Of a stretch of 64,000 nucleotides of DNA, positions 39,687 through 53,063 are shown one piece after another. The stretch comes from Deltaproteobacteria bacterium. GTDB taxonomy: Bacteria > Myxococcota_A > UBA9160 > UBA4427. Under the pieces are notes generated by a model. It searched no databases. It was not told where the DNA came from and saw nothing but the letters and a program-made list of their open reading frames with translations. Location of the stretch: positions 62,001 to 126,000 of the forward strand of contig JAJDAN010000089.1 in assembly GCA_029261855.1 (NCBI GenBank). Reading direction: 5' to 3'. A program made the translations under genes and the position numbers. The number at the start of each line of letters is the position of its first letter. The stretch's first letter is position 1.

Positions 39687-41459
39687 TCAGCGCAAGGGTG
39701 GCGCCCTACCCCCGCTCGATGCCTTCACTGGCGCCGGCATGGCGGGCGGGCGCAGCCAGGCGGCGTCCGCTGCGACGCCGCCGTCGAGGGTTCGCAGGAA
39801 GGCGACCAGGGCCTTCGCATCGCCGTCGTCGATCTCGAGGGGTGTGATCTCGAACGGGCGGGGGCTGGCCGGCGGATTCCGGTAATGCTCGACGACCTCT
39901 TCCAGGGTCGCGAAGCGGCCGTCGTGCAGGTAGGGCGCGGTGCTCGGCAGACCGCGCAGAGTGGGCGTCTTGAACTTGCCGCTCTCGGCTTCGGCATGGC
40001 TCTTGTCGAGGAAGCGCAGCTCCGTGCAGTCGCGGGGGGCCGCGTCGCTGTAGGGGCCGAGGCAGTTGAAGGGGTCGATGAGCACCGATTGAAGACCGAG
40101 GAAGCGTCCGAAGTCCGGAAGCGGTCCATCGCCCTCCGCGGTCCCGACGTCGTGAAAGACGTGGTTGGTGAGCAGGGGGCCATTGTGGCAGCGCAGGCAC
40201 AACGTGCGCTCGATGTCGAGGAAGAGGCGCAAGCCCCGGATCTCCTCCTTGCTGAGTCCGGCATCCGGATCGGCGGGGAAGGCCGTGCGCAACCCGTCGA
40301 CCCAGCGATCGAAGCGCGACGGGGCCGGCACCAGGAGCCGTTCGTAGGCGGCGAGCGCCTTGCCGACGTTCGCGAACGCGACGTCGACGGTCTTGCGGTC
40401 CGCGGGCGACATCCGGTACCAGGCGTCCTGCTCGCTTCGCGTACCGAAGGGGCCGGCCGCTTCTGGGAAGCGGTCTCGCGGGTGCACGTCGCGTAGGGGG
40501 ACCTCACCGAAGGCCCGCTCGTAGAGCGCCGCCAGGCCGGGTTCGCCCGCCACGCGACGCACCACCGCCACGCGCGTGCTGCCCATTTCAGCGGCGGTCT
40601 CGAGGGGTGCCAACGCCTGGGACCACAGGCTGTCCCGGCGTCCGTCCCAGAACTGCCAAGCGGAGTGGCCGCTGGCCACGACCGTGGGTGCGTTGCGAGT
40701 CGTGCCGGCGAGGCCGCGTGACGTCGGGAGGCCGTCGGTGAAGAATCGCTCGGGCACGTGGCAGGTCGCGCAGGAAACGCTGCCATCCCGCGAGAGCCCG
40801 GGATCGAAGAAGAGGTGGTGCCCCAACTCCGCTGCGGCCGGGTCGTCGGCAACACGGTTGGACGGGCTCGCAGGCGTTCGCGGAAGGGACCGGAGAGTGA
40901 GCGATTCGAGCAGCGTGATCTGCGACGGAGTCCAGCTGCCGGGCTCGACCTCGAGCGGCAAGCGTACGGGATCGCCCCCGTTGGGGCCGAGCACCGTGAT
41001 CTGCAGCACCCAGGCCCCCGGCATGTGGAACTTGACGCCTTCGACGAGGAACTCGCCGCCGCCGAGGTTCTGGGTGACACGCGGACGCGTCACGAAGCCG
41101 TGTCCGTGGGCCGGCATACCGCCGTCGAAGAGCAGGCCCGTCGGGACCTCCGACGCGGCCCCGGCCAGCTCGATCCCCACCACCCAGTCGTGCATCTGGT
41201 GCAGCCCGACCGGCGACGCCGCCGGGCGGGCGTGGATGCGGTAGTTGCCGCTGTCCGAGAGGCCCTCGAGGACGAGCGGCCGCGACTCGCGTCCGGATCT
41301 GTCGGCCTGGGCGTCCGGCTCGGGTCCGGCGGGACCCGGGTCACAGCCCGCCGCGAGGGCCACAAAGACGAGACCGGTGAGGATCACGCGACGACGCGCA
41401 GCCCGCGCTGCGCGCCGGCTGCGTATTCGTGAGGACGTCGGGAAGATGCTGCGGGGCAT
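39687..41459 (-). CDS. Di-haem cytochrome c peroxidase / MauG-like protein with extra N-terminal domain
   Basis: A 590-residue exported haem protein. A lipoprotein-type signal (LTGLVFVALAAGC) is followed by a roughly 100-residue beta domain (MHDWVVGIEL, GGMPAHGHGF, FHMPGAWVLQITV) like YtkA/FixH domains that handle copper. The peroxidase part has two haem-binding motifs, C230-A-T-C-H234 and C421-L-R-C-H425, with the usual FFDPGLSRDGSVSC and KTPTLRGLPSTAPYLHDGR. Length is greater than the 330-480 usual for the family because of the added domain. It is divergent from the copper-radical-oxidase/cytochrome fusion gene, which suggests linked redox roles. Confidence 0.88.
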   Translation of the reverse strand: MPRSIFPTSSRIRSRRAARAARRRVILTGLVFVALAAGCDPGPAGPEPDAQADRSGRESRPLVLEGLSDSGNYRIHARPAASPVGLHQMHDWVVGIELAGAASEVPTGLLFDGGMPAHGHGFVTRPRVTQNLGGGEFLVEGVKFHMPGAWVLQITVLGPNGGDPVRLPLEVEPGSWTPSQITLLESLTLRSLPRTPASPSNRVADDPAAAELGHHLFFDPGLSRDGSVSCATCHVPERFFTDGLPTSRGLAGTTRNAPTVVASGHSAWQFWDGRRDSLWSQALAPLETAAEMGSTRVAVVRRVAGEPGLAALYERAFGEVPLRDVHPRDRFPEAAGPFGTRSEQDAWYRMSPADRKTVDVAFANVGKALAAYERLLVPAPSRFDRWVDGLRTAFPADPDAGLSKEEIRGLRLFLDIERTLCLRCHNGPLLTNHVFHDVGTAEGDGPLPDFGRFLGLQSVLIDPFNCLGPYSDAAPRDCTELRFLDKSHAEAESGKFKTPTLRGLPSTAPYLHDGRFATLEEVVEHYRNPPASPRPFEITPLEIDDGDAKALVAFLRTLDGGVAADAAWLRPPAMPAPVKASSGGRAPPLR

Positions 41460-41654
41460 GTCAGGAAGCTCGTCGGACGCCGGACCCGGCAGGTGGAGTG
41501 GGGATCCCGGCGGCGAGCATCATACCGACCCCTGCCGGTGGGGCGACGGCTCACGAAGCGCTTCGATCCGGCACGACTTTGTGGCCCAAACGCTGACTCG
41601 TTGCGCGTAGAATGGCCACGTACACGGACGACGCTGCTGCTGGAGTGCCCCCCT

Positions 41655-44600
41655 TTGCACCGCACGCCTCTTCATCGCCTCCCTCTCTTCCGCCTACCCC
41701 GCCCCCCCTGGCGCGCGCGCTTCGGGTGCCTCGCCCTGGCGCTCTTCTTGCTGCAGCTCGGTTGGGCGCCGCAGGCTTCCGCGGACTTCGACTTCGAGGT
41801 GTACGACGGCAGCTTCGACTTCCTGCCGGACTTCGGGGGGCTGACGCCCATCGCGACGGGGACGTCCACGGCCATCAGTCTCTCCGTGACCACCGAGGTC
41901 GAGACCTTCGCGCTCGTGTTCACGATCCAGATCGATGTGCCCACCACTGGCGACTACGAGTTCTATACGAACTCCGACGATGGCTCGATCCTCTATGTCG
42001 ACGGCAACATCGTCGTCGACAACGACGGTTTGCATGCACCCGTGTCGGTCGCCAGCCTCACGACCCTCACCGCCGGCTTGCACACCCTGCGCGTCGAGTT
42101 CTTCGAAAAGGGGGGCGGCCAGGTCCTCGACGTCGGCTACCGAACGGGCAACCCGAGCTTCGAGCCCATTCCCGCAGATGGCCAGCTCGCCTACTACAGC
42201 TCGAACGAGTCCATCTTCGGGAGCTGGGGGCCCGTGATCCAGTGGCCCCACATCGCGATCTCGATGGCCAGCCTGCCCGACGGCCGGGTGCTCGCGTGGT
42301 CCTCTACCGAGACCAACGCCTTCCCGAGCGGCCCCACCTTCACCCACGCGTCGGTCTTCGATCCCATCGCCGAGACCTTCGTCAATGCCGACAGCAACTT
42401 CCATGACATGTTCTGCGCGGGGGTCGCGACCCTCGAGGACGGCACCATCCTCGCCTCCGGCGGCAACCCCAGCGACCGCCGCACCTCGAGCTTCGACCCG
42501 ACGACCCTGGCCTGGTCGCCCCGCGCCGACATGATCGACCGGCGCTGGTACGCGACGAGCGTGACCCTGCCCGACAACCGGGTGTTCGCGAGCTTCGGCA
42601 AGGACGCGGGCAACCGGTCCGAGGTCTATGACCCGGCAACGAACACCTGGACCGCGACCCCCAACGCCAACATGCAGACGCTCGTGGACGAGCAGAACGC
42701 CATCCAGGCGGCTTTCAATCCGACCGGCGCGCTCAACCACGAATGGTGGTCGCATCTGACCGTCGCTCCCCAGGGCGACCTGATGATGGCGGGCCCGACA
42801 CAGACCTGGCATCGCTTCGACCCCATCGGCGGCGCACCGAACGTCGTGCTCGGCCAGCCGATCGGCGACACCGCGCGGATGTACGGCAACGCGGTGAACT
42901 ACGACGCCGGCAAGATGCTTCTGATCGGCGGGGCGGACCGCCGCATCGACCCGCCGACTAGCGTCGGCCACGTCTACCGGATCGACTTGAACGGCCCGTC
43001 CCCGGTGCTGACCACCGGGGCACCCATGAACTTCCCCCGCGCGCTCAGCAATTCGGTGATGCTCCCGAACGGCAAGGTGCTCGTCGTCGGCGGGAACACC
43101 GTCGCGAAGATCTTCAGTGACGAGGGCTCGGTGCTACCCGGGGAAATCTACGACCCGGCGCTGGACACCTGGACGGTCGTCGACAGCATCACGATTCCGC
43201 GCAACTACCACTCCACCGCGATCCTTCTCCAGGACGGTCGTGTTCTCTCTGCGGGGGGTGGGGCCTGCGGCGGCTGCAACGAGAATCACCTGGACGGTCA
43301 GATCTTCTCGCCCCCGTACCTGTTCGAGTCCGACGACACGCCCGCGATCCGCCCCACCCTGTCCGTCCCGCCGGGCACCAGCGTCTACGCCGGCGACGAC
43401 CTCGTCGTGACGGCGAGCCCGGGCACGACTTCCTTCTCCATCGTCCGGCTGTCCGGCACGACCCACCACCTGAACACCGACCAGCGCTTCCTTCCGCTTT
43501 CGTCCATCGACAATGGGGACGGCAGCTTCACCGTCAGCTTCCCCGCGAACCCCAACATCCTGATCATCGGCAACTACTGGCTGTTCGCCCTCGACGGCGA
43601 CGGGACGCCCTCGGTCGCCGAACTCGTCCAGGTGACGCGCGAGTTCGTAGCCGCAGCCGAGCCCGAGGGCGGCGTCTACGTGTCGGACCTCGTGTGGAGC
43701 TCCGAACAGAACGGCTTCGGACCCGCCGAGCGCGATCGCAGCAACGGCGAGGATGGCCCCGGAGACGGCGGCCCGATCACCCTGGACGGCCAGGTCTACG
43801 CCAAGGGCATCGGCGTCCACGCCTATTCCGAGATCGACGTACCGCTCGACGGGCTCTACGACCGATTCTTCTCCCGCATCGGTCTCGACGACGAGCGCGA
43901 CGGGCAGTGCGGAGACGTCAGCTTCGAGGTCGACATCGACTCCGTCAACGTCTACGCGAGCGGCAGCTTCGTGGACACGACACCGACCGAGATCGTCGAC
44001 CTCGACGTCTCCGGCGCGCAGCTACTCACCCTGAAGGTCTTCGACAACGGCGCCACTTGCGGCGACCACGGCGACTGGGCGGACGCCCGCCTGGTCCCGA
44101 CGGTCTTCCCCGGCTACCGCTACTACCGCCTCCGCACGACCAAGGTCCGCGACGACCTGCTCGCGGACTCGGTCCAGCTGGCCGAGCTCTCGCTCTTCCA
44201 GGGAGCGAGCCGCATCCACTCCTTCGGCGCCACGAACCCCGGCGGCAACAACTCGAGCAACGAGTCGGCCGGTCGCGCGGATGACGCCGCCACGAACACC
44301 AAGTGGCGCGACCTCAACGTCCAGCCCCTCGTCTACGACATGGGCGCGAACGTGGAGATCGACTTCTACACGATCACCACGGCGAACGGAAACGACGAAC
44401 GAGACCCCGTCCGGTGGTTCTTCGAGGGAAGCGAGGACGGGCTGAACTGGGTGATCCTCGACGACCAGACAGGAGGAGACTTCCCGACCCCGCTCGCGCG
44501 CCAGACCGAGATCGCCCAGATCGCCCTGAACGACCTGACCCCGGTAACGGCCCTGCCTGCGGCACCGCGACACTCGACCACCTTGATCGTCGAGGACAGC

Positions 44601-47366
44601 AGCCTCGCGGACCGCATCTGGAACGTGAACCCCGACAACGACACGGTATCCGTCGTCGACGATGCGGGCAGTCTGCTCGCGGAGATCCCCGTCGGCGACC
44701 AGCCGTGGTCCCTCGCCCGGCAGCCCGGCGCCAATCGCGTCTTCGTCACCAACAAGGGCTCGTCGACGGTCACGGTGATCGACACCGCCCTGCTCAGCGT
44801 CGATCACAGCTTCCCGCTGGCCCGCGGTGCCCAGCCCCACGGCATCGTCTTCAGCAGCGACGGCGTCCACTACTTCGTCGTCCTCGAAGCGCTCGCCACC
44901 CTCGAGAAACGCCTCGCGGCCGATCACAGCCTCGTCGGCAGCCTGCCGCTCACCGGCAAGCCGCGGCACCTCTCGATTCGCTACGACGACTCTCGGCTCT
45001 TCGTCAGCAACTTCGTGACACCGCCCGTCCCCGACGAGCACACGCTCACCCCCGACGTCGGCAACGGAGCCGCTCAGGTCTTCGCCATCGACCCCGCCGC
45101 ACTCACCCTGGGCGGGACCATCGGCCTGCCCCACGACGGTCGCACCCAGTCCGAAGTCCAGGGCCCCGGGCTGCCCAACTATCTCGGGGCGGCGGTCGTC
45201 AGCTTCGACGATCAGTCCGCCTACGTGCCCACCAAGAAGGACAACATCCAGTCCGGGCTGCTGCGCGGCGTCCCGGGCATGACCTTCGAATCGACGGTCC
45301 GCGCGAACACCTCCCGCATCGATCTCGCGACCGAGCTCGAAGACCCGCTCTTCCGCGTGGACCACGACAACTCGAGCGTCGCCACCGACGCGGCCCTGAG
45401 CGGCGACGATCGATATCTCTTCGTCACCCTGGAAACGAGCCGCGAGCTCGCCATCTACGACACCCAGAATGGCTTCCAGCTGATGCGCCTGCCCACGGGC
45501 CGCGCCCCCCGCAGCGTGGCGCTGTCGAGCGACGGCAGCCGCGCCTACGTGCACAACTTCCTCGACCGCAGCATCTCGCGCTTCGATCTGACGCAGATGC
45601 TCCAGACGAACCTGCCCGCGACGAACCTGTTGCCTCCGGTCGGTGTGGTCACCGCCGAGACGCTCTCTCCGACGGTCCTGCTCGGCAAGCAGCACTTCTA
45701 CGACGCCGCAGACGATCGCCTGGCCCTCGACAACTACATCAGCTGCGCGTCCTGCCACCGAAACGGCGACAGCGACGGCCGGGTGTGGGATCTCAGCCAG
45801 TTCGGCGAAGGCGTACGCAAGACGATTTCGCTGCAGGGCAAGGGGAGCGGCCACGGGCTGCTGCACTGGACGGGAAACTTCGACGAGGTGCAGGACTTCG
45901 ACAAGCAGGTGCGACTGCTCAACTGGGGAAACGGGTTCCTCACGCCGTCCGAGTACGCCGCGACCGCCGATCCGTTGGGCGCCCCGAAGGCGGGACTCAA
46001 CGCCGACCTGGACGCCCTCGCCGCCTACGTCACGTCGCTCACGCAAGCCCCGGAGAGCCCGGTTCGTCCGAGCGCCGTGGCGCTGAGCGCCAGCGCGCAG
46101 GCGGGCCAGATCTCCTTTGCGGCGGAGGGCTGCCTGGGCTGCCACGCGCCCACGCAGCTGACCGACTCGCCCCTCGGCCTGCGGCACGACATCGGCACCA
46201 TCGACACGGCCAGCGGCCGGCGCCTGGACGGCCCGTTGGACGGCTTCGACTCGCCGGGGCTCCTGAGTGTCTGGGCGAGCCCGCCCTACCTCCATGACGG
46301 CGAGGCGCAGACCCTGGAAGCCGCCATCACCGCCCACGACGTCTTCGCGGGCCTGCCGGCGCCCACGGTGACCGAGCTCGCGAACTTCCTGCGCGAGGCC
46401 GAAGCCGGCGATCTCACCGGCTTCGACGACGACGACGGCGACGGAACGACGAACGTCCTCGACTCCGCGCCCGCGGACCCCTGCCTCCCGACGGTCTTCG
46501 TCGCAGTCTGCACCCAGGACAGCGACGGCGACGGCGCCAGCGACTTCAGCGAAGGCGAGCTCAGCGACAGCGACGGCGACGGAACCCCCGACTACCTCGA
46601 GTCGGCGATCGCGGACGCCGACCTCGACGGACTCCCGGACGAGTTCGACCCGGCCAACGGGGACGCCTGCGTGCCCGCCGTCTTCGTCGCCGCTTGTACC
46701 CAGGACAGCGACGGCGACGGCGCGACCGACTTCACGGAAGGCCAGTTCACGGACAGCGACGGCGACGGAACCCCCGACTACCTCGAGTCGTCGGTTGCCG
46801 ACGCGGACGCCGACGGAACCCCGGACCAGAGCGACCCGGCGGACAGCGACGCCTGTGCGCCGGAAGTCTTCGTCGCCGCTTGCACCCAGGACAGCGACGG
46901 CGACGGCGCCACGGACTTCACCGAAGGCGAGCTCACCGACAGCGACGGTGACGGCACCCCCGACTATCTCGAGTCATCGGTCGCGGATGCCGACGCCGAT
47001 GGGACAACGGACCAGAGCGACGCCTTCGATTCCGAGCCCTGCGCACCCGAGACCTTCGTCGCAGCCTGCAGCCAGGACAGCGACGGCGACGGCGCCAGCG
47101 ACTTTGCCGAAGGAGAGTTCACCGACAGCGATGGCGACGGCACGCCCGACTATCTGGAGTCTTCGATTGCGGACGCGGACGCCGACGGCACTCCGGACCA
47201 GGACGATCCCTGGGACGTGAACGCCTGCGTGCCCGACCCGAACGCGTGCCCGAGGGTGCCGGCCAGCGGGCTCTTCGCCCAACTGCTGCTCGCGCTCATG
47301 CTCGTCGCCACCGGCGTCGGCGTGCATCGCAATCGCGCACGGCTTTCCGGTCCCAGCCGCCGGTAG
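41655..47366 (+). CDS. Giant secreted fusion: copper radical oxidase, NPCBM, propeller, di-haem cytochrome c, TSP3 repeats, sorting tail
   Basis: About 1903 residues from TTG 41655, which has GGAG nine bases upstream; the start is tentative. Order: signal peptide; PA14-like domain (about 40-160); galactose/glyoxal-oxidase-like propeller with C-terminal DUF1929-like domain (about 190-655); NPCBM-type domain (665-815); F5/8-type region (815-960); YVTN-like propeller (970-1330); cytochrome c region with CASCH (C1364-H1368) and CLGCH (C1493-H1497); four TSP3-like acidic repeats; hydrophobic sorting tail with basic end. The copper-radical residues are present: C254, Y299 (RRWY), Y518-H519 (NYHS) and H604 (THHL). 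An oxidase joined to haems on one chain is unusual. Cell-surface location is inferred from the tail. Confidence 0.87.
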   Translation: MHRTPLHRLPLFRLPRPPWRARFGCLALALFLLQLGWAPQASADFDFEVYDGSFDFLPDFGGLTPIATGTSTAISLSVTTEVETFALVFTIQIDVPTTGDYEFYTNSDDGSILYVDGNIVVDNDGLHAPVSVASLTTLTAGLHTLRVEFFEKGGGQVLDVGYRTGNPSFEPIPADGQLAYYSSNESIFGSWGPVIQWPHIAISMASLPDGRVLAWSSTETNAFPSGPTFTHASVFDPIAETFVNADSNFHDMFCAGVATLEDGTILASGGNPSDRRTSSFDPTTLAWSPRADMIDRRWYATSVTLPDNRVFASFGKDAGNRSEVYDPATNTWTATPNANMQTLVDEQNAIQAAFNPTGALNHEWWSHLTVAPQGDLMMAGPTQTWHRFDPIGGAPNVVLGQPIGDTARMYGNAVNYDAGKMLLIGGADRRIDPPTSVGHVYRIDLNGPSPVLTTGAPMNFPRALSNSVMLPNGKVLVVGGNTVAKIFSDEGSVLPGEIYDPALDTWTVVDSITIPRNYHSTAILLQDGRVLSAGGGACGGCNENHLDGQIFSPPYLFESDDTPAIRPTLSVPPGTSVYAGDDLVVTASPGTTSFSIVRLSGTTHHLNTDQRFLPLSSIDNGDGSFTVSFPANPNILIIGNYWLFALDGDGTPSVAELVQVTREFVAAAEPEGGVYVSDLVWSSEQNGFGPAERDRSNGEDGPGDGGPITLDGQVYAKGIGVHAYSEIDVPLDGLYDRFFSRIGLDDERDGQCGDVSFEVDIDSVNVYASGSFVDTTPTEIVDLDVSGAQLLTLKVFDNGATCGDHGDWADARLVPTVFPGYRYYRLRTTKVRDDLLADSVQLAELSLFQGASRIHSFGATNPGGNNSSNESAGRADDAATNTKWRDLNVQPLVYDMGANVEIDFYTITTANGNDERDPVRWFFEGSEDGLNWVILDDQTGGDFPTPLARQTEIAQIALNDLTPVTALPAAPRHSTTLIVEDSSLADRIWNVNPDNDTVSVVDDAGSLLAEIPVGDQPWSLARQPGANRVFVTNKGSSTVTVIDTALLSVDHSFPLARGAQPHGIVFSSDGVHYFVVLEALATLEKRLAADHSLVGSLPLTGKPRHLSIRYDDSRLFVSNFVTPPVPDEHTLTPDVGNGAAQVFAIDPAALTLGGTIGLPHDGRTQSEVQGPGLPNYLGAAVVSFDDQSAYVPTKKDNIQSGLLRGVPGMTFESTVRANTSRIDLATELEDPLFRVDHDNSSVATDAALSGDDRYLFVTLETSRELAIYDTQNGFQLMRLPTGRAPRSVALSSDGSRAYVHNFLDRSISRFDLTQMLQTNLPATNLLPPVGVVTAETLSPTVLLGKQHFYDAADDRLALDNYISCASCHRNGDSDGRVWDLSQFGEGVRKTISLQGKGSGHGLLHWTGNFDEVQDFDKQVRLLNWGNGFLTPSEYAATADPLGAPKAGLNADLDALAAYVTSLTQAPESPVRPSAVALSASAQAGQISFAAEGCLGCHAPTQLTDSPLGLRHDIGTIDTASGRRLDGPLDGFDSPGLLSVWASPPYLHDGEAQTLEAAITAHDVFAGLPAPTVTELANFLREAEAGDLTGFDDDDGDGTTNVLDSAPADPCLPTVFVAVCTQDSDGDGASDFSEGELSDSDGDGTPDYLESAIADADLDGLPDEFDPANGDACVPAVFVAACTQDSDGDGATDFTEGQFTDSDGDGTPDYLESSVADADADGTPDQSDPADSDACAPEVFVAACTQDSDGDGATDFTEGELTDSDGDGTPDYLESSVADADADGTTDQSDAFDSEPCAPETFVAACSQDSDGDGASDFAEGEFTDSDGDGTPDYLESSIADADADGTPDQDDPWDVNACVPDPNACPRVPASGLFAQLLLALMLVATGVGVHRNRARLSGPSRR
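46515..47215 (+). repeat. 186-bp tandem repeat encoding TSP3-like calcium-binding units
   Basis: Four units start with CAGGACAGCGACGGCGACGG at 46515, 46701, 46887 and (close variant) 47073, an exact 186-base period. The last unit is shorter at its end. Each 62-residue unit has DSDGDGASDF and DSDGDGTPDYLES, Asp-rich loops of the thrombospondin type 3 kind, which bind calcium. Confidence 0.92.
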
Positions 47367-47393: not shown

Positions 47394-47819
47394 TCAGCCT
47401 GGATTCGTCGCGTGCTCGGCGAGGCCATCGGGCATCGCCACCCAGGGCTGCGCGGTGTCGCACCAGAAGACCGCCTGGGGCTCCATCCAGCTCGCGTCGT
47501 CGAGGGATCCCGACTTCACGAACCTGACGCCCGGCATCACCGCCACCTCGCTGTAGAGCTGAGCGCCGCAGTCGGGACAGAAGAAGCGCGTCACGCTTCC
47601 CCCGCTGGTGCCCTGGACCGTGAACCCCTTCGCCTCTCCCTGATCCGCGCGGAAGCTCGCATCGGGCACGAAGCAGAAGGTCGCGAAGGCGCTCCCCGTG
47701 GCTCGCTGGCAGTCCCTGCAGTGGCAATGCGCCTGTCCGGCGATTCCGCCGCGATCGATCGCGTAGCGCACCTTTCCGCACAGGCAGCCGCCCTGTTCCC
47801 AGCTCTTCGATCCGCTCAT
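47394..47819 (-). CDS. GFA-family zinc protein
   Basis: A 141-residue protein with GFA cysteines CLCGKV, HCHCRDCQR and FFCPDCGAQ in order. It is a second GFA member (the other is at 32463), with a different C-terminal part (FWCDTAQPWV) that places it in the aldehyde-handling-like subgroup of unknown substrate. It is divergent from the GMC oxidoreductase across 104 bases. A possible role is detoxifying an aldehyde product of oxidation, which is inference from location. Confidence 0.9.
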   Translation of the reverse strand: MSGSKSWEQGGCLCGKVRYAIDRGGIAGQAHCHCRDCQRATGSAFATFCFVPDASFRADQGEAKGFTVQGTSGGSVTRFFCPDCGAQLYSEVAVMPGVRFVKSGSLDDASWMEPQAVFWCDTAQPWVAMPDGLAEHATNPG

Positions 47820-47923
47820 CTCCGCCTCCTCGTCAGAACTTCGCGATTCTCGAACCAGAGATGCGAATTCGCCGACAGTTCGGATAGATTAGCGACTCCG
47901 ACAATCACCCCTGAGCTCGAGAC

Positions 47924-49528
47924 GTGGCCGAACAAGCTGTCGACGTAGTGATCATTGGAGCGGGTGCATCCGGAGCGGCCTTCGCCTGGAGCCTCGCCGA
48001 GACGCGCATGCGGATCGTGTGTCTCGAGCAGGGCGGCTGGATGAAGCCCACCGACTATCCGACCAACTCCGCGGACTGGGAGGTGCGAGGCGCCGGCGAG
48101 TTCGCGACCAGCCCCAACACCCGGGGGCGCCCGGCCGACTATCCCATCAACGACGACGATTCGCCGATCAAGATCGCGAACTTCAACGCAGTGGGCGGCA
48201 GCACCATCCTGTACGCCGCGCACTTCCCGCGCTTCAAGCCGTCTGACTTCCGTGTGAGGACGCTGGACGGCGTCGCCGACGACTGGCCCATCGACTACCA
48301 GACCCTCGAGCCCTACTGGGCGGAGAACGACGTGATGATGGGCGTGTCCGGGCTCGCCGGAGATCCCGCGTATCCGCCCAAGGAAGTGCCCCTGCCCCCG
48401 GTGCCCCTCGGCAAGCTCGGCGAGACGATCGCCGGAGGCTTCAACGAGCTCGGCTGGCACTGGTGGCCTTCCGACAGCGCGATCGCGACCCGCGAGTACA
48501 AGGGGCGTGCACCGTGCATCAATCTCGGGCCCTGTATCACCGGCTGCTCCCAGGGCGCGAAGGCGAGCACCGACCTGACCTACTGGCCCGAGGCCGAACG
48601 ACGCGGCGTCGAAGTGCGCCCGCACTGCCGGGTGCGCGAGATCACCGTCGATGCCAACGGCATGGCGGACGGCGTCATCTACTACGACGCGGAGGGGGTG
48701 GAACAGCGACTGCGCGCGGAGATCGTCGTGATCGCGGCCAACGGCGTCGGGACACCGCGCCTGTTGCTCAACTCCGCGTCGAATCAGTTCCCGGACGGCC
48801 TGGCCAATCGCAGCGGCCTGGTCGGTCGCAACCTCATGTTCCACCCCTACGCCATGGTTCTCGGTCTCTTCGACGAGCCCCTGCTCGGCTACCAGGGCCC
48901 CACCGGTTGTGGACTCTGGAGCCACGAGTTCTACGAGACCGATCCCGGACGGGACTGCGTGCGCGGCTACTCGTTCGAGCTCGTGCGCGGCTTCGGCCCT
49001 TTGACCTCGGCGCTCTGGAGCCTGAGCAAGGGCGAGCTCTCCTGGGGCGATGGCCACCACGAAGCGATGGCGGGCATCGTCGATCACATCGGGGGCATGA
49101 TGGCCATCTGCGAAGACCTGCCCGAGGCCCACAACACCGTCACCCTCGACCCCGACCTGGTGGACGGAAACGGGATCCCGGCGCCGCGCATCTCGTACCG
49201 TCTCAGCGAGAACAGTCGGAAGCTGCTCGACCACGGCACGGCGCGGGCGACCGACGTGCTGAAGGCGGCCGGTGCGCGGCGCGTCGTCTCCGACGCGCCC
49301 CTCGCGATGGCGGGCTGGCACCTGATGGGGACCGCCCGGATGGGGCGCGACCCCGAGCACTCCGTCGTGAACGAGTGGGGGCGCAGCCACGACGTCCCGA
49401 ACCTGTTCATCATCGACGGCAGCGTCTTCGTCACCTCGGGTGCCGTCAATCCGTGCAACACCATCCAGGCTCTCGCGCTGTATGTCGCCGACCAGATCAA
49501 GAAGAACATCGATCACCTCTTCGACTAG
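47924..49528 (+). CDS. GMC-family FAD oxidoreductase
   Basis: A 534-residue flavoprotein from GTG 47924. The FAD-binding site is VVIIGAGASGAAFAW (residues 9-23), the second ribose site is E in CLEQGGW, and GMC motif FNAVGGSTILYAAH follows. The C-terminal active-site region has WHLMGTARMG and NLFIIDGSVFVTSGAVNPCNT, with His and Asn in place. It also has an Fe-S-free Cys cluster (NLGPCITGCSQGAK) typical of gluconate dehydrogenase-like large subunits. The next gene is a subunit-3-like protein 15 bases later, so they probably form a membrane-associated dehydrogenase. Substrate (sugar or alcohol) unknown. Confidence 0.92.
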   Translation: MAEQAVDVVIIGAGASGAAFAWSLAETRMRIVCLEQGGWMKPTDYPTNSADWEVRGAGEFATSPNTRGRPADYPINDDDSPIKIANFNAVGGSTILYAAHFPRFKPSDFRVRTLDGVADDWPIDYQTLEPYWAENDVMMGVSGLAGDPAYPPKEVPLPPVPLGKLGETIAGGFNELGWHWWPSDSAIATREYKGRAPCINLGPCITGCSQGAKASTDLTYWPEAERRGVEVRPHCRVREITVDANGMADGVIYYDAEGVEQRLRAEIVVIAANGVGTPRLLLNSASNQFPDGLANRSGLVGRNLMFHPYAMVLGLFDEPLLGYQGPTGCGLWSHEFYETDPGRDCVRGYSFELVRGFGPLTSALWSLSKGELSWGDGHHEAMAGIVDHIGGMMAICEDLPEAHNTVTLDPDLVDGNGIPAPRISYRLSENSRKLLDHGTARATDVLKAAGARRVVSDAPLAMAGWHLMGTARMGRDPEHSVVNEWGRSHDVPNLFIIDGSVFVTSGAVNPCNTIQALALYVADQIKKNIDHLFD

Positions 49529-49543
49529 CCGGAGTAAAACGCG

Positions 49544-49999
49544 GTGACTGACCAGAACCCGGGATCTCCCGAGCAGCAGCGCGCCCTCGCGTGCGTACTC
49601 GACGAGATCATCCCGCCGAATCCGGATGGGCGCCTACCCGGCGCGGGCGCAATCGGTCTGGGGGATACCCTGGCGGCACGGCCCGAGCTGTGGCCGCTGA
49701 TCGAAGCCGGCATCCAGGCGATCGATGCCATCGCGCAACAGCGCGGAGCGACCACCTTCGCCGAGCTTCCCCGGGCCGATCGTCGCGGAGTGCTCGACGA
49801 GTCCGTCGCAACGGCGCCGGTCTTCCTGCCGACCCTGATCGCCCAGACCTTCGTCGGCTACTACCAGGACGCGGCGGTGCGCGAAGCCCTGGGGCTAGAC
49901 GCCGGCGCCCCGTTCCCCAAGGGCTACGCGGTCGCGCCCACGGACTTCAGCATCCTGGACCCGGTTCGCCGCCGGGGGGCCTTCTTTCGCGAGCCCTGA
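49544..49999 (+). CDS. Gluconate 2-dehydrogenase subunit 3-like protein
   Basis: A 151-residue protein from GTG 49544, similar to the small subunit of membrane GMC dehydrogenases. It has LACVLDEIIPPNPDGRLPGAGA near the start, then helical sequence to FVGYYQDAAVREALGL. The usual Tat signal is missing here, so export may depend on the large subunit or be absent. It is the last gene in the operon and is followed by the 50094 lipoprotein gene. Confidence 0.82.
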   Translation: MTDQNPGSPEQQRALACVLDEIIPPNPDGRLPGAGAIGLGDTLAARPELWPLIEAGIQAIDAIAQQRGATTFAELPRADRRGVLDESVATAPVFLPTLIAQTFVGYYQDAAVREALGLDAGAPFPKGYAVAPTDFSILDPVRRRGAFFREP

Positions 50000-51920: not shown

Positions 51921-53063
51921 CTAACAGGTTGTCCTGGAACGCGTTTTCCGGCGGATCCATGCGAGTGCGACCAGGGCCCCCCCGGCGAGCAGGCTGGCGC
52001 CGGGCTCGGGGACCTCGAGTGGGTCGAGGTCGAGAAGCTCGCTGGTGGCGCCGATCGCGATCGTTCGCTCGTAGCTGCCCGCGAGATCACCGCCGCTGAA
52101 TGTCACGTCGTAGCTGCCGGGCGCCAGGATCGGGATCGCGTAGCCGCCGCTCGCGCCGGTCACCGCGAAGAAAGACCCGCTCGAAGGAGTGACCGTCACG
52201 TCGCCCAGGCCTTCGCCCGGGTCGTAGGCCCCGTCCTCGTCCAGGTCTTCCCAGACGGTGCCGACCAGGAAACGGTTGTAGTGGTCGGCAACCGGCGGGT
52301 ACGCGTAGAGATAGACGGCCGATGTCACGAGAGGGCCGACTTCCGTGCCGGGGTTGCCTTCGGGCACCATCGCGATTCCGACGTTCGAATAGTCGCCCAT
52401 GATGGCCGCGCGGTGTCCCCGCCCGGGCTGCATGCCGGTGCCGTCTCCCGGTCCCCAGTCGATGTTGAAGGCCGCGTGGGCGTTGAGCGCTGAATCGGCA
52501 AACGAGAAGACGCTCGCGCGACCCCCATCGTGCACGAACCCCGAAGCATCGACCCGGTCGAACTGGCCCTCGTGGTCCTGCTCGTCGCGGTCGATGAGGT
52601 CGAGGGAGTGGGCCAGCGACGCCTCGTAGAGGCGGCGATCGAAGGCGGCAGGCGGGGCGGGCGCGATGGCGGCGAACTCGGCCTGGAGTAGGTCGAGATC
52701 CACGCCATAGCCGGATCGTCCACCTGCGACGTCCGGGTGCGAGGAAGTCGCCAGCCAGACACCTTCGGCGACCGGGTCCTGGCGCGCCTCGTTCATGAAC
52801 CACAAGAGCAGCTGCTCGTTCGCGTCCGGATGCAGACCGTCCGCTGTCTTGTGCAGCGCCCATTCCGTGAGGGCTGCGCCAGCTCCAGTGCCGCCGGCCG
52901 CTGCCCGTGCCGGGTCGCGCGCCCGCGACGACTCGATGGTGGGAGGGTCGGGTGCGGGAAAGTGAGCCGCGTCACCTTCGGTACCGAAGTCGATCGTCTG
53001 CGAGTTCGCGGGGGCGGAGAGCGCGAATACGAGCACGAGGAAGCCCAGGCTTCGAACGGCCAT
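51921..53063 (-). CDS. CAP-domain protein with PEP-CTERM tail
   Basis: A 380-residue exported protein. The signal peptide (LGFLVLVFALSAPANS) precedes a CAP/SCP-like domain at about 80-260 (LLLWFMNEARQDPVAEG, HSLDLIDRDEQDHEGQ, GRGHRAAIMGDYSNVGIAM). A carboxypeptidase-regulatory/SdrD-like beta domain follows (GTVWEDLDEDGAYDPGEGLG). The end, VPEPGASLLAGGALVALAW and RRK, is a PEP-CTERM sorting signal recognised by exosortase. No exosortase gene is in the window. Probably sorted to the outer envelope or released. Divergent from no gene directly; upstream is the 53156 gene in the same direction. Confidence 0.88.
   Translation of the reverse strand: MAVRSLGFLVLVFALSAPANSQTIDFGTEGDAAHFPAPDPPTIESSRARDPARAAAGGTGAGAALTEWALHKTADGLHPDANEQLLLWFMNEARQDPVAEGVWLATSSHPDVAGGRSGYGVDLDLLQAEFAAIAPAPPAAFDRRLYEASLAHSLDLIDRDEQDHEGQFDRVDASGFVHDGGRASVFSFADSALNAHAAFNIDWGPGDGTGMQPGRGHRAAIMGDYSNVGIAMVPEGNPGTEVGPLVTSAVYLYAYPPVADHYNRFLVGTVWEDLDEDGAYDPGEGLGDVTVTPSSGSFFAVTGASGGYAIPILAPGSYDVTFSGGDLAGSYERTIAIGATSELLDLDPLEVPEPGASLLAGGALVALAWIRRKTRSRTTC

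Follow-up and report, generated by a model that had tools for sequence, protein, structure and literature searches.

A predicted copper radical oxidase joined to a beta-propeller and a di-haem cytochrome c domain on one polypeptide recurs in several bacterial phyla

Copper radical oxidases (CROs) of family AA5, including galactose oxidase, GlxA and glyoxal oxidase, share a kelch propeller, a GO-like E-set domain and a Cys/Tyr/Tyr/His/His site. The known members hand electrons to O2 and work without haem, and they are seen as dependent on O2, able to rest in an inactive state and in need of a peroxidase for full activity. This need is for one-electron activation, and tandems of a CRO with a peroxidase are encoded in fungi (PMC9770985). 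An AA5-CE3 fusion enzyme is already known (cited in PMC11267884). Secreted sugar-type oxidoreductases with a tethered cytochrome domain are represented by cellobiose dehydrogenase and PQQ pyranose dehydrogenase, which use flavin or PQQ with b-type haem (PMC6472588). In the hydrazine synthase beta-gamma part of anammox bacteria a propeller is followed by a di-haem domain, and in this enzyme's gamma subunit, as in cytochrome c peroxidase (CCP), haem II supplies the electrons for reduction of a small molecule at haem I (PMC12607021). A Gln/Pro/Glu triad is described as conserved across bCCP, MauG and BthA (PMC6405878), and the MbnH/MbnP, MopE/SACCP and CorA/CorB pairs are tied to copper, with MopE also tied to kynurenine (PMC3621798).

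We analysed a window of 64,000 nucleotides (the whole stretch of DNA under study) in which a predicted CRO, a beta-propeller and a di-haem c domain share one open frame, beside a divergent gene for a second di-haem enzyme. The pairing of a CRO with a haem peroxidase recalls the fungal tandem of peroxidase and copper radical alcohol oxidase (PMC9770985); however, the fungal tandem consists of two separate proteins with a class II peroxidase, whereas here a c-type di-haem domain is predicted in cis and a MauG-type partner in trans. The layout likewise recalls cellobiose dehydrogenase and PQQ pyranose dehydrogenase, but with a copper radical site and c-type haem. The longest open frame ran from a GTG at 41493 to 47366 on the + strand (at most 1957 aa), and all residue numbers below count from this GTG. 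The start is uncertain among three in-frame candidates, GTG 41493, TTG 41601 and TTG 41655; the sequence-only reading of this DNA had used the in-frame TTG at 41655, and its residue numbers equal ours minus 54. The features were as follows.

41493..47366, + strand: whole frame, predicted exported multidomain CRO / propeller / di-haem fusion (same single-ORF fusion in 66 other contigs)
41712..41783, + strand: probable signal peptide (RARFGCLALALFLLQLGWAPQASA/DF), aa 74-97 (sequence reading and the N-termini of L031, L032 and L060)
41901..42128, + strand: PA14 domain (PF07691, 49.7 bits, cut-off 24)
42210..43640, + strand: AA5-type CRO, kelch propeller plus GO-like E-set, aa 240-716 (profiles, homology and ligand conservation)
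Copper/radical residues within it, + strand: C308 (42414), Y353 (42549), Y572 (43206), H573 (43209) and H658 (43464), from sequence and alignment
43674..44093, + strand: NPCBM/NEW2 domain (PF08305, 129.1 bits)
44100..44522, + strand: discoidin-like region (phmmer, aa 917-1003 against the GH92 entry 7nsn, E 5.7e-11; no Pfam match)
44601..45647, + strand: YVTN/YncE-type beta-propeller (fold and profile matches)
45663..46412, + strand: di-haem c domain of the CCP/MauG/hydrazine-synthase-gamma superfamily, aa 1391-1640 (profiles; both CxxCH in 67/67 relatives)
45744..45758, + strand: haem I site CASCH, aa 1418-1422 (invariant in the fused set)
45786..45788, + strand: Trp1432, candidate inter-haem tryptophan (67/67; role suggested by analogy with MauG Trp93)
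45906..45908, + strand: Gln1472, candidate haem-I pocket residue (Gln in 69/69 fused, Asp in 19/24 CRO-free proteins)
46131..46145, + strand: haem II site CLGCH, aa 1547-1551 (invariant in the fused set)
46335..46337, + strand: His1615, probable second axial ligand of haem II (position of the CCP axial Met and MauG Tyr294)
46425..47222, + strand: Asp-rich DxDGDG repeats of Ca-binding type (13 motif copies, aa 1646-1894)
47265..47324, + strand: C-terminal hydrophobic segment and basic tail, a putative sorting or anchoring signal (sequence reading)
39687..41459, - strand: divergent partner, MauG/MbnH-type di-haem enzyme with CxxCH at 230 and 421 (profiles, alignment)
40998..41129, - strand: YtkA-like region of the partner with a GGMPAHGHG motif (PF13115, 19.1 bits, below the cut-off of 25.9)

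The sequence-only reading had described a three-part polypeptide and had proposed a domain search of each segment. This search matched the CRO, propeller and di-haem parts, each backed by homology within one frame, and a chance motif as the source of the observation was ruled out because homology was strong in every part. The PA14 domain, the NPCBM domain, the discoidin-like region, the Asp-rich Ca-type repeats and the C-terminal hydrophobic segment were additions to that description. The CRO is accompanied by candidate carbohydrate-binding or adhesion domains.

The CRO part matched galactose oxidase over the full domain (9g8h, E 1.7e-82; 1gof, 3e-71) and the profiles PF09118 (61.8 bits, cut-off 25) and Kelch_6 (38.6 bits, cut-off 25.3), and it showed the AA5 layout of a kelch propeller followed by a GO-like E-set. 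All five residues of the copper-radical site claimed from the first reading were present, Cys308 in HDMFC, Tyr353 in RRWY, Tyr572-His573 in PRNYH and His658 in TTHHLNTDQR. Cys308 was kept in 62 of 63 fused CRO domains and the other four residues in all 63. The second-sphere Trp290 of galactose oxidase was absent from the window protein, which has FGKDAG where galactose oxidase has GGSWSGG, and from most relatives; it was present in Rhizobacter-type members such as L070. Trp290 is not universal across AA5, and its absence therefore bears on substrate and not on AA5 membership. The GlxA model NF052501 scored 148.9 bits against a cut-off of 800. One fused protein, from a Thiotrichaceae MAG (L085, 1393-6390), showed three changes, with the copper-site Cys replaced by Ala, His304 by Arg and the haem-II axial His by Met; this single case would fit a coupled change of the copper and haem sites.

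A search through genome contigs yielded 148 relatives; among the best-scoring 80 that were kept, 66 loci carried CRO, propeller and di-haem domain in one ORF and always in that order, a share biased upward because the kept loci were the best-scoring ones. Four further genomes carried the fusion, L113 and L114 from the same taxonomic order and L132 and L133 from the same phylum as the window. An assembly error that joined the domains, a possibility raised with the first reading together with a search of other genomes, was ruled out because 66 independent contigs and these four genomes carry the three parts in one ORF. The hosts were Myxococcota, Gammaproteobacteria (including Leucothrix pacifica), Betaproteobacteria/Burkholderiales (Rhizobacter, Ideonella paludis, Parvibium lacunae), Verrucomicrobiota (Prosthecobacter, Brevifollis) and one Phycisphaerae MAG. 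The predicted fusion is thus a real enzyme architecture that recurs in several phyla, built from domains that are each already known. The linkers between CRO and propeller differed widely in length and content among fused members. In the complete genome of Marinobacter salarius R9SW1 (L043, 6671-16503) the CRO and the propeller-dihaem protein were adjacent separate genes; the CRO lay in two overlapping ORFs, possibly through a frameshift, and YtkA-like and MauG-type genes followed the propeller-dihaem gene. A small, conserved lipoprotein-like gene (116-161 aa) directly followed the fusion in Granulosicoccaceae MAGs (L046, L048, L049, L051, L054, L056 and L062).

The evolutionary distances of the CRO and di-haem parts were correlated (r 0.73), and 0 of 2000 Mantel shuffles reached that value. 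A tree of 93 di-haem domains had a 100/99 branch that separated 69 fused members and four others from 20 CRO-free members; three of the four others (the first ORF of L063, L104 and L109) were cut by a contig end and their class is undecidable, and the fourth, L106, was a complete CRO-free protein that has probably lost its CRO secondarily. Since the fused di-haem domains all sit on the same side of this branch, one ancient fusion is the simplest reading, and the tree indicates essentially a single joining of a CRO to a pre-existing propeller-dihaem module. Within the tree the window protein grouped with gammaproteobacterial L031 and L035 (100/97) and its host is a Myxococcota relative, which suggests transfer between phyla.

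The module also occurred without a CRO. In a sample of the phylum the di-haem domain was found in 41 of 188 genomes and a strong CRO in only 6; at 18 of 20 inspected loci no CRO was present, and Big_5, PKD or LVIVD parts stood in front where examined. Such CRO-free proteins (L134-L151) form a large family and were frequent in Myxococcota, in about a fifth of sampled genomes. The haem-I pocket residues of the fused proteins were invariant in these relatives too, and the module therefore has a function for which no CRO is needed. These results are what would be expected if the propeller-dihaem part worked on its own, as a surface enzyme or a unit for electron transfer, and shared only a secreted scaffold and a substrate zone with the CRO, with other domains taking the place of the CRO in front of an unchanged pocket and no direct redox coupling between the two. 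We regard this as somewhat unlikely, since the fused clade is ancient and spans phyla, its CRO and haem sites have stayed intact with hardly an exception, and its haem domain has a residue of its own, Gln1472. This residue may, however, mark the clade rather than signal coupling between CRO and haem.

The best fold matches of the propeller were the S-layer YVTN protein 1l0q and hydrazine synthase beta 5c2v_B, both at Z 37.1. The VIA-align match list was filled by propellers and so gives no information on the di-haem fold. Family profiles of the di-haem part matched hydrazine synthase gamma (5c2v_C, 1.1e-20) and cytochrome c peroxidases (E 1e-20 to 1e-18). The window's di-haem part scored 24.2 bits with PF03150, just below the cut-off of 25.6, and relatives scored higher (L031 43.3, L059 40.1 and L039 44.2 bits). 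By sequence comparison the module is nearest to hydrazine-synthase beta/gamma and cytochrome c peroxidase; compared with hydrazine synthase, the window protein has no alpha part and a CRO in front, and NF052342 gave 49.2 bits against a cut-off of 1250. An AlphaFold model of propeller plus di-haem domain had pLDDT 83 and pTM 0.88, with parts of the di-haem domain low, while a four-domain model of a compact Ideonella member was poor (pLDDT 63, pTM 0.47).

Both c-haem sites that had been read from the sequence were found, in CCP-like order and with an HDG motif as in bacterial di-haem CCP and MauG, and the two were kept in 67/67 relatives. Besides both CxxCH, the residues Trp1432, His1458, Trp1459, Asp1464, Glu1465, Asp1468 and Gln1472 were invariant in 67 di-haem domains. 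At the axial position of the C-terminal haem, His occurred in 60 of 66 proteins, where CCP has Met and MauG has Tyr; most of the remaining six had His in a nearby loop or were cut by a contig end, and one (L085) had Met. Because His1615 occupies the position of the axial Met or Tyr294, a bis-His haem II like that of hydrazine synthase gammaII is suggested.

Such a haem could serve a CRO that works as a cytochrome-linked dehydrogenase, in which substrate-reduced Cu(I) would pass electrons through the di-haem domain to a c-type cytochrome or a surface acceptor and by-pass O2. The strict co-conservation of the copper site and the haems, the role of gammaII as an electron-exchange haem (PMC12607021) and the flexible cytochrome domains of cellobiose dehydrogenase and pyranose dehydrogenase, secreted sugar oxidoreductases (PMC6472588), are consistent with this model. 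The linkers, by contrast, are long and dissimilar among members, and the propeller-dihaem module exists without a CRO. Galactose-oxidase-type Cu(I) has a potential of about +0.15 V. The potential of hydrazine synthase gammaII is -330 mV (PMC12607021), and if haem II behaves likewise its potential would be low and electron flow from the copper site uphill. We therefore consider the dehydrogenase unlikely: delivery of electrons to haem instead of O2, put forward in the sequence-only reading, is possible and found no support given the variable linkers, the CRO-free modules and the probable low potential of haem II.

In the distal pocket of the in-cis domain the Pro and Glu of the triad (MauG Gln103/Pro107/Glu113) were missing in an alignment read by eye, and Gln1472 is a possible equivalent of the triad Gln if a three-residue shift is allowed. 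A classical in-cis peroxidase is weakened as a candidate by this largely missing triad. The true MauG-type member at the locus was instead the divergent partner, which kept the distal Gln281/Pro285/Glu291 and Tyr526 at the axial position, all invariant or nearly so in 31 partners.

The first reading had pointed to this divergent di-haem enzyme with a possible copper-handling domain, and the association proved to be conserved. Of 49 decidable fused genes, 29 had a homologue of the partner no more than 3 kb away (31 of 51 with two more loci), and the 18 CRO-free propeller-dihaem genes had none nearby (Fisher p 2.5e-6, a guide only since the rows are related). As 20 fused genes with complete flanks had no adjoining partner, it is not obligatory in cis. 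In the window and some Gammaproteobacteria the partner diverged from the fusion gene, in others it lay downstream, and in Verrucomicrobiota it lay upstream with an overlap; because its placement differs among host groups, the linkage has survived rearrangements. An MbnP domain was found in 16 of 31 partners, fused in Verrucomicrobiota and N-terminal in L086, and the window partner showed its weak YtkA-like match at the place of MbnP; in L031 a separate YtkA gene scored 41.7 bits. Like the di-haem enzymes of the MbnH/MbnP, CorB/CorA and SACCP/MopE pairs, the partner is thus MauG-type and carries MbnP (Verrucomicrobiota) or a YtkA-like region (window). It differs from them in adjoining a copper oxidase gene and in scoring below the cut-off of TIGR04039 (133 bits against 362.85; about 250 for Verrucomicrobiota partners), and a methanobactin or methanotroph context was not seen. 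The fusion of partner and MbnP in Verrucomicrobiota points to copper handling, and by analogy we infer that the partner may have a copper-supply or maturation role for the CRO. Next to an unfused CRO in L111 (8431-11949), one ORF of 1173 aa held three MbnP stretches and an MbnH-type di-haem enzyme. A promoter scan at the divergent starts of fusion and partner found nothing.

The Cys-Tyr cross-link of CROs forms by self-processing with Cu and O2, and this speaks against a role of the in-cis di-haem domain in making or restoring the Cys308-Tyr353 cross-link or the tyrosyl radical by a MauG-like oxidation. Precedents for such self-maturation exist in members of the MauG superfamily that modify proteins (PMC6405878), in the kynurenine of MopE-type proteins (PMC3621798) and in the activation of CROs by free peroxidases (PMC9770985). 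The in-cis domain, however, has lost most of the classical triad and has His in place of Tyr294, while the partner gene keeps the MauG features, and we consider in-cis maturation very unlikely.

We favour the reading that the di-haem module serves peroxide-coupled or one-electron redox management of the CRO, with a probability of about 0.4. The CRO would act on a bound glycan or small molecule, oxidising its primary-alcohol or aldehyde groups at the Cu(II)-Tyr radical and converting O2 to H2O2, and the MbnH/MbnP-type or YtkA-type partner would handle or load copper outside the cytoplasm or oxidatively mature its target. The in-cis module would take care of the by-product and of the CRO's one-electron redox state. 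H2O2 would be met at haem I, which would be five-coordinate or have water bound, and the bis-His haem II would exchange electrons with a c-type cytochrome in solution. From haem I, oxidising equivalents could then return a one-electron-reduced "off" copper site to the radical form, much as free-standing peroxidases act on fungal CROs. With these steps, coupling between CRO and haem would be expected to be collisional or through peroxide and not along a fixed wire, and the variable content and length of the linkers fit such flexible coupling.

Peroxide coupling is favoured by the joint retention of the copper-radical residues and both haems over more than 60 fused sequences, by the correlated CRO and haem distances, the well-supported fused branch and the clade-specific Gln1472 near haem I. 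The partner, with its full Gln/Pro/Glu and Tyr, tracks the CRO rather than the propeller-dihaem module, and about half of the partners carry MbnP. Peroxide coupling also agrees with the chemistry of the superfamily, in which a small molecule is reduced at haem I and electrons are exchanged at haem II, with the known dependence of CROs on a peroxidase for one-electron activation, and with the cytochrome c assembly genes carried by the window's own genome. Against it stand the occurrence of the module without a CRO and the 20 partner-free fused genes, and the loss of the triad Pro and Glu makes a classical peroxide reaction at haem I doubtful.

A broader formulation, a self-managing or respiratory CRO, we hold tentatively, with the odds somewhat against it: the di-haem domain would swap single electrons with the Cu-tyrosyl site and the MbnH/MbnP-type partner would load copper, and either substrate electrons would enter a cytochrome chain in place of O2 or peroxide would restore the radical. 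If this is true, the protein would be, to our knowledge, the first copper radical enzyme to carry its own cytochrome partner. The open-licence papers covered contained no description of a CRO/di-haem fusion, an absence that is weak evidence, and NCBIfam held no model covering the combination. The accessible part of a review of cytochrome-carrying oxidoreductases (PMC6472588) treats flavin and PQQ enzymes, with no copper radical enzyme and no use of the term "copper radical".

A widespread fusion of essentially single origin, often beside an MbnH/MbnP-type copper system, suggests a bacterial solution, through gene fusion and linkage, to the redox control or the copper supply of CROs. Two questions thereby become testable: how copper radical enzymes stay active in nature, and what purpose MbnH/MbnP pairs serve outside methanobactin loci. 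The one-chain version is accessible in cultured hosts (Rhizobacter, Ideonella paludis, Parvibium lacunae, Leucothrix pacifica and Brevifollis), and sugar-oxidising bioelectrodes are a possible use.

Beyond the fusion, positions 47397-49996 of the window held a GFA (formaldehyde-activating) gene on the minus strand, a GMC oxidoreductase gene and a gluconate 2-dehydrogenase subunit-3-like gene, a possible aldehyde/alcohol theme at the locus. The end of a minus-strand protein at 51924-53063 matched PEP-CTERM weakly, which hints at exosortase-type sorting in this genome.
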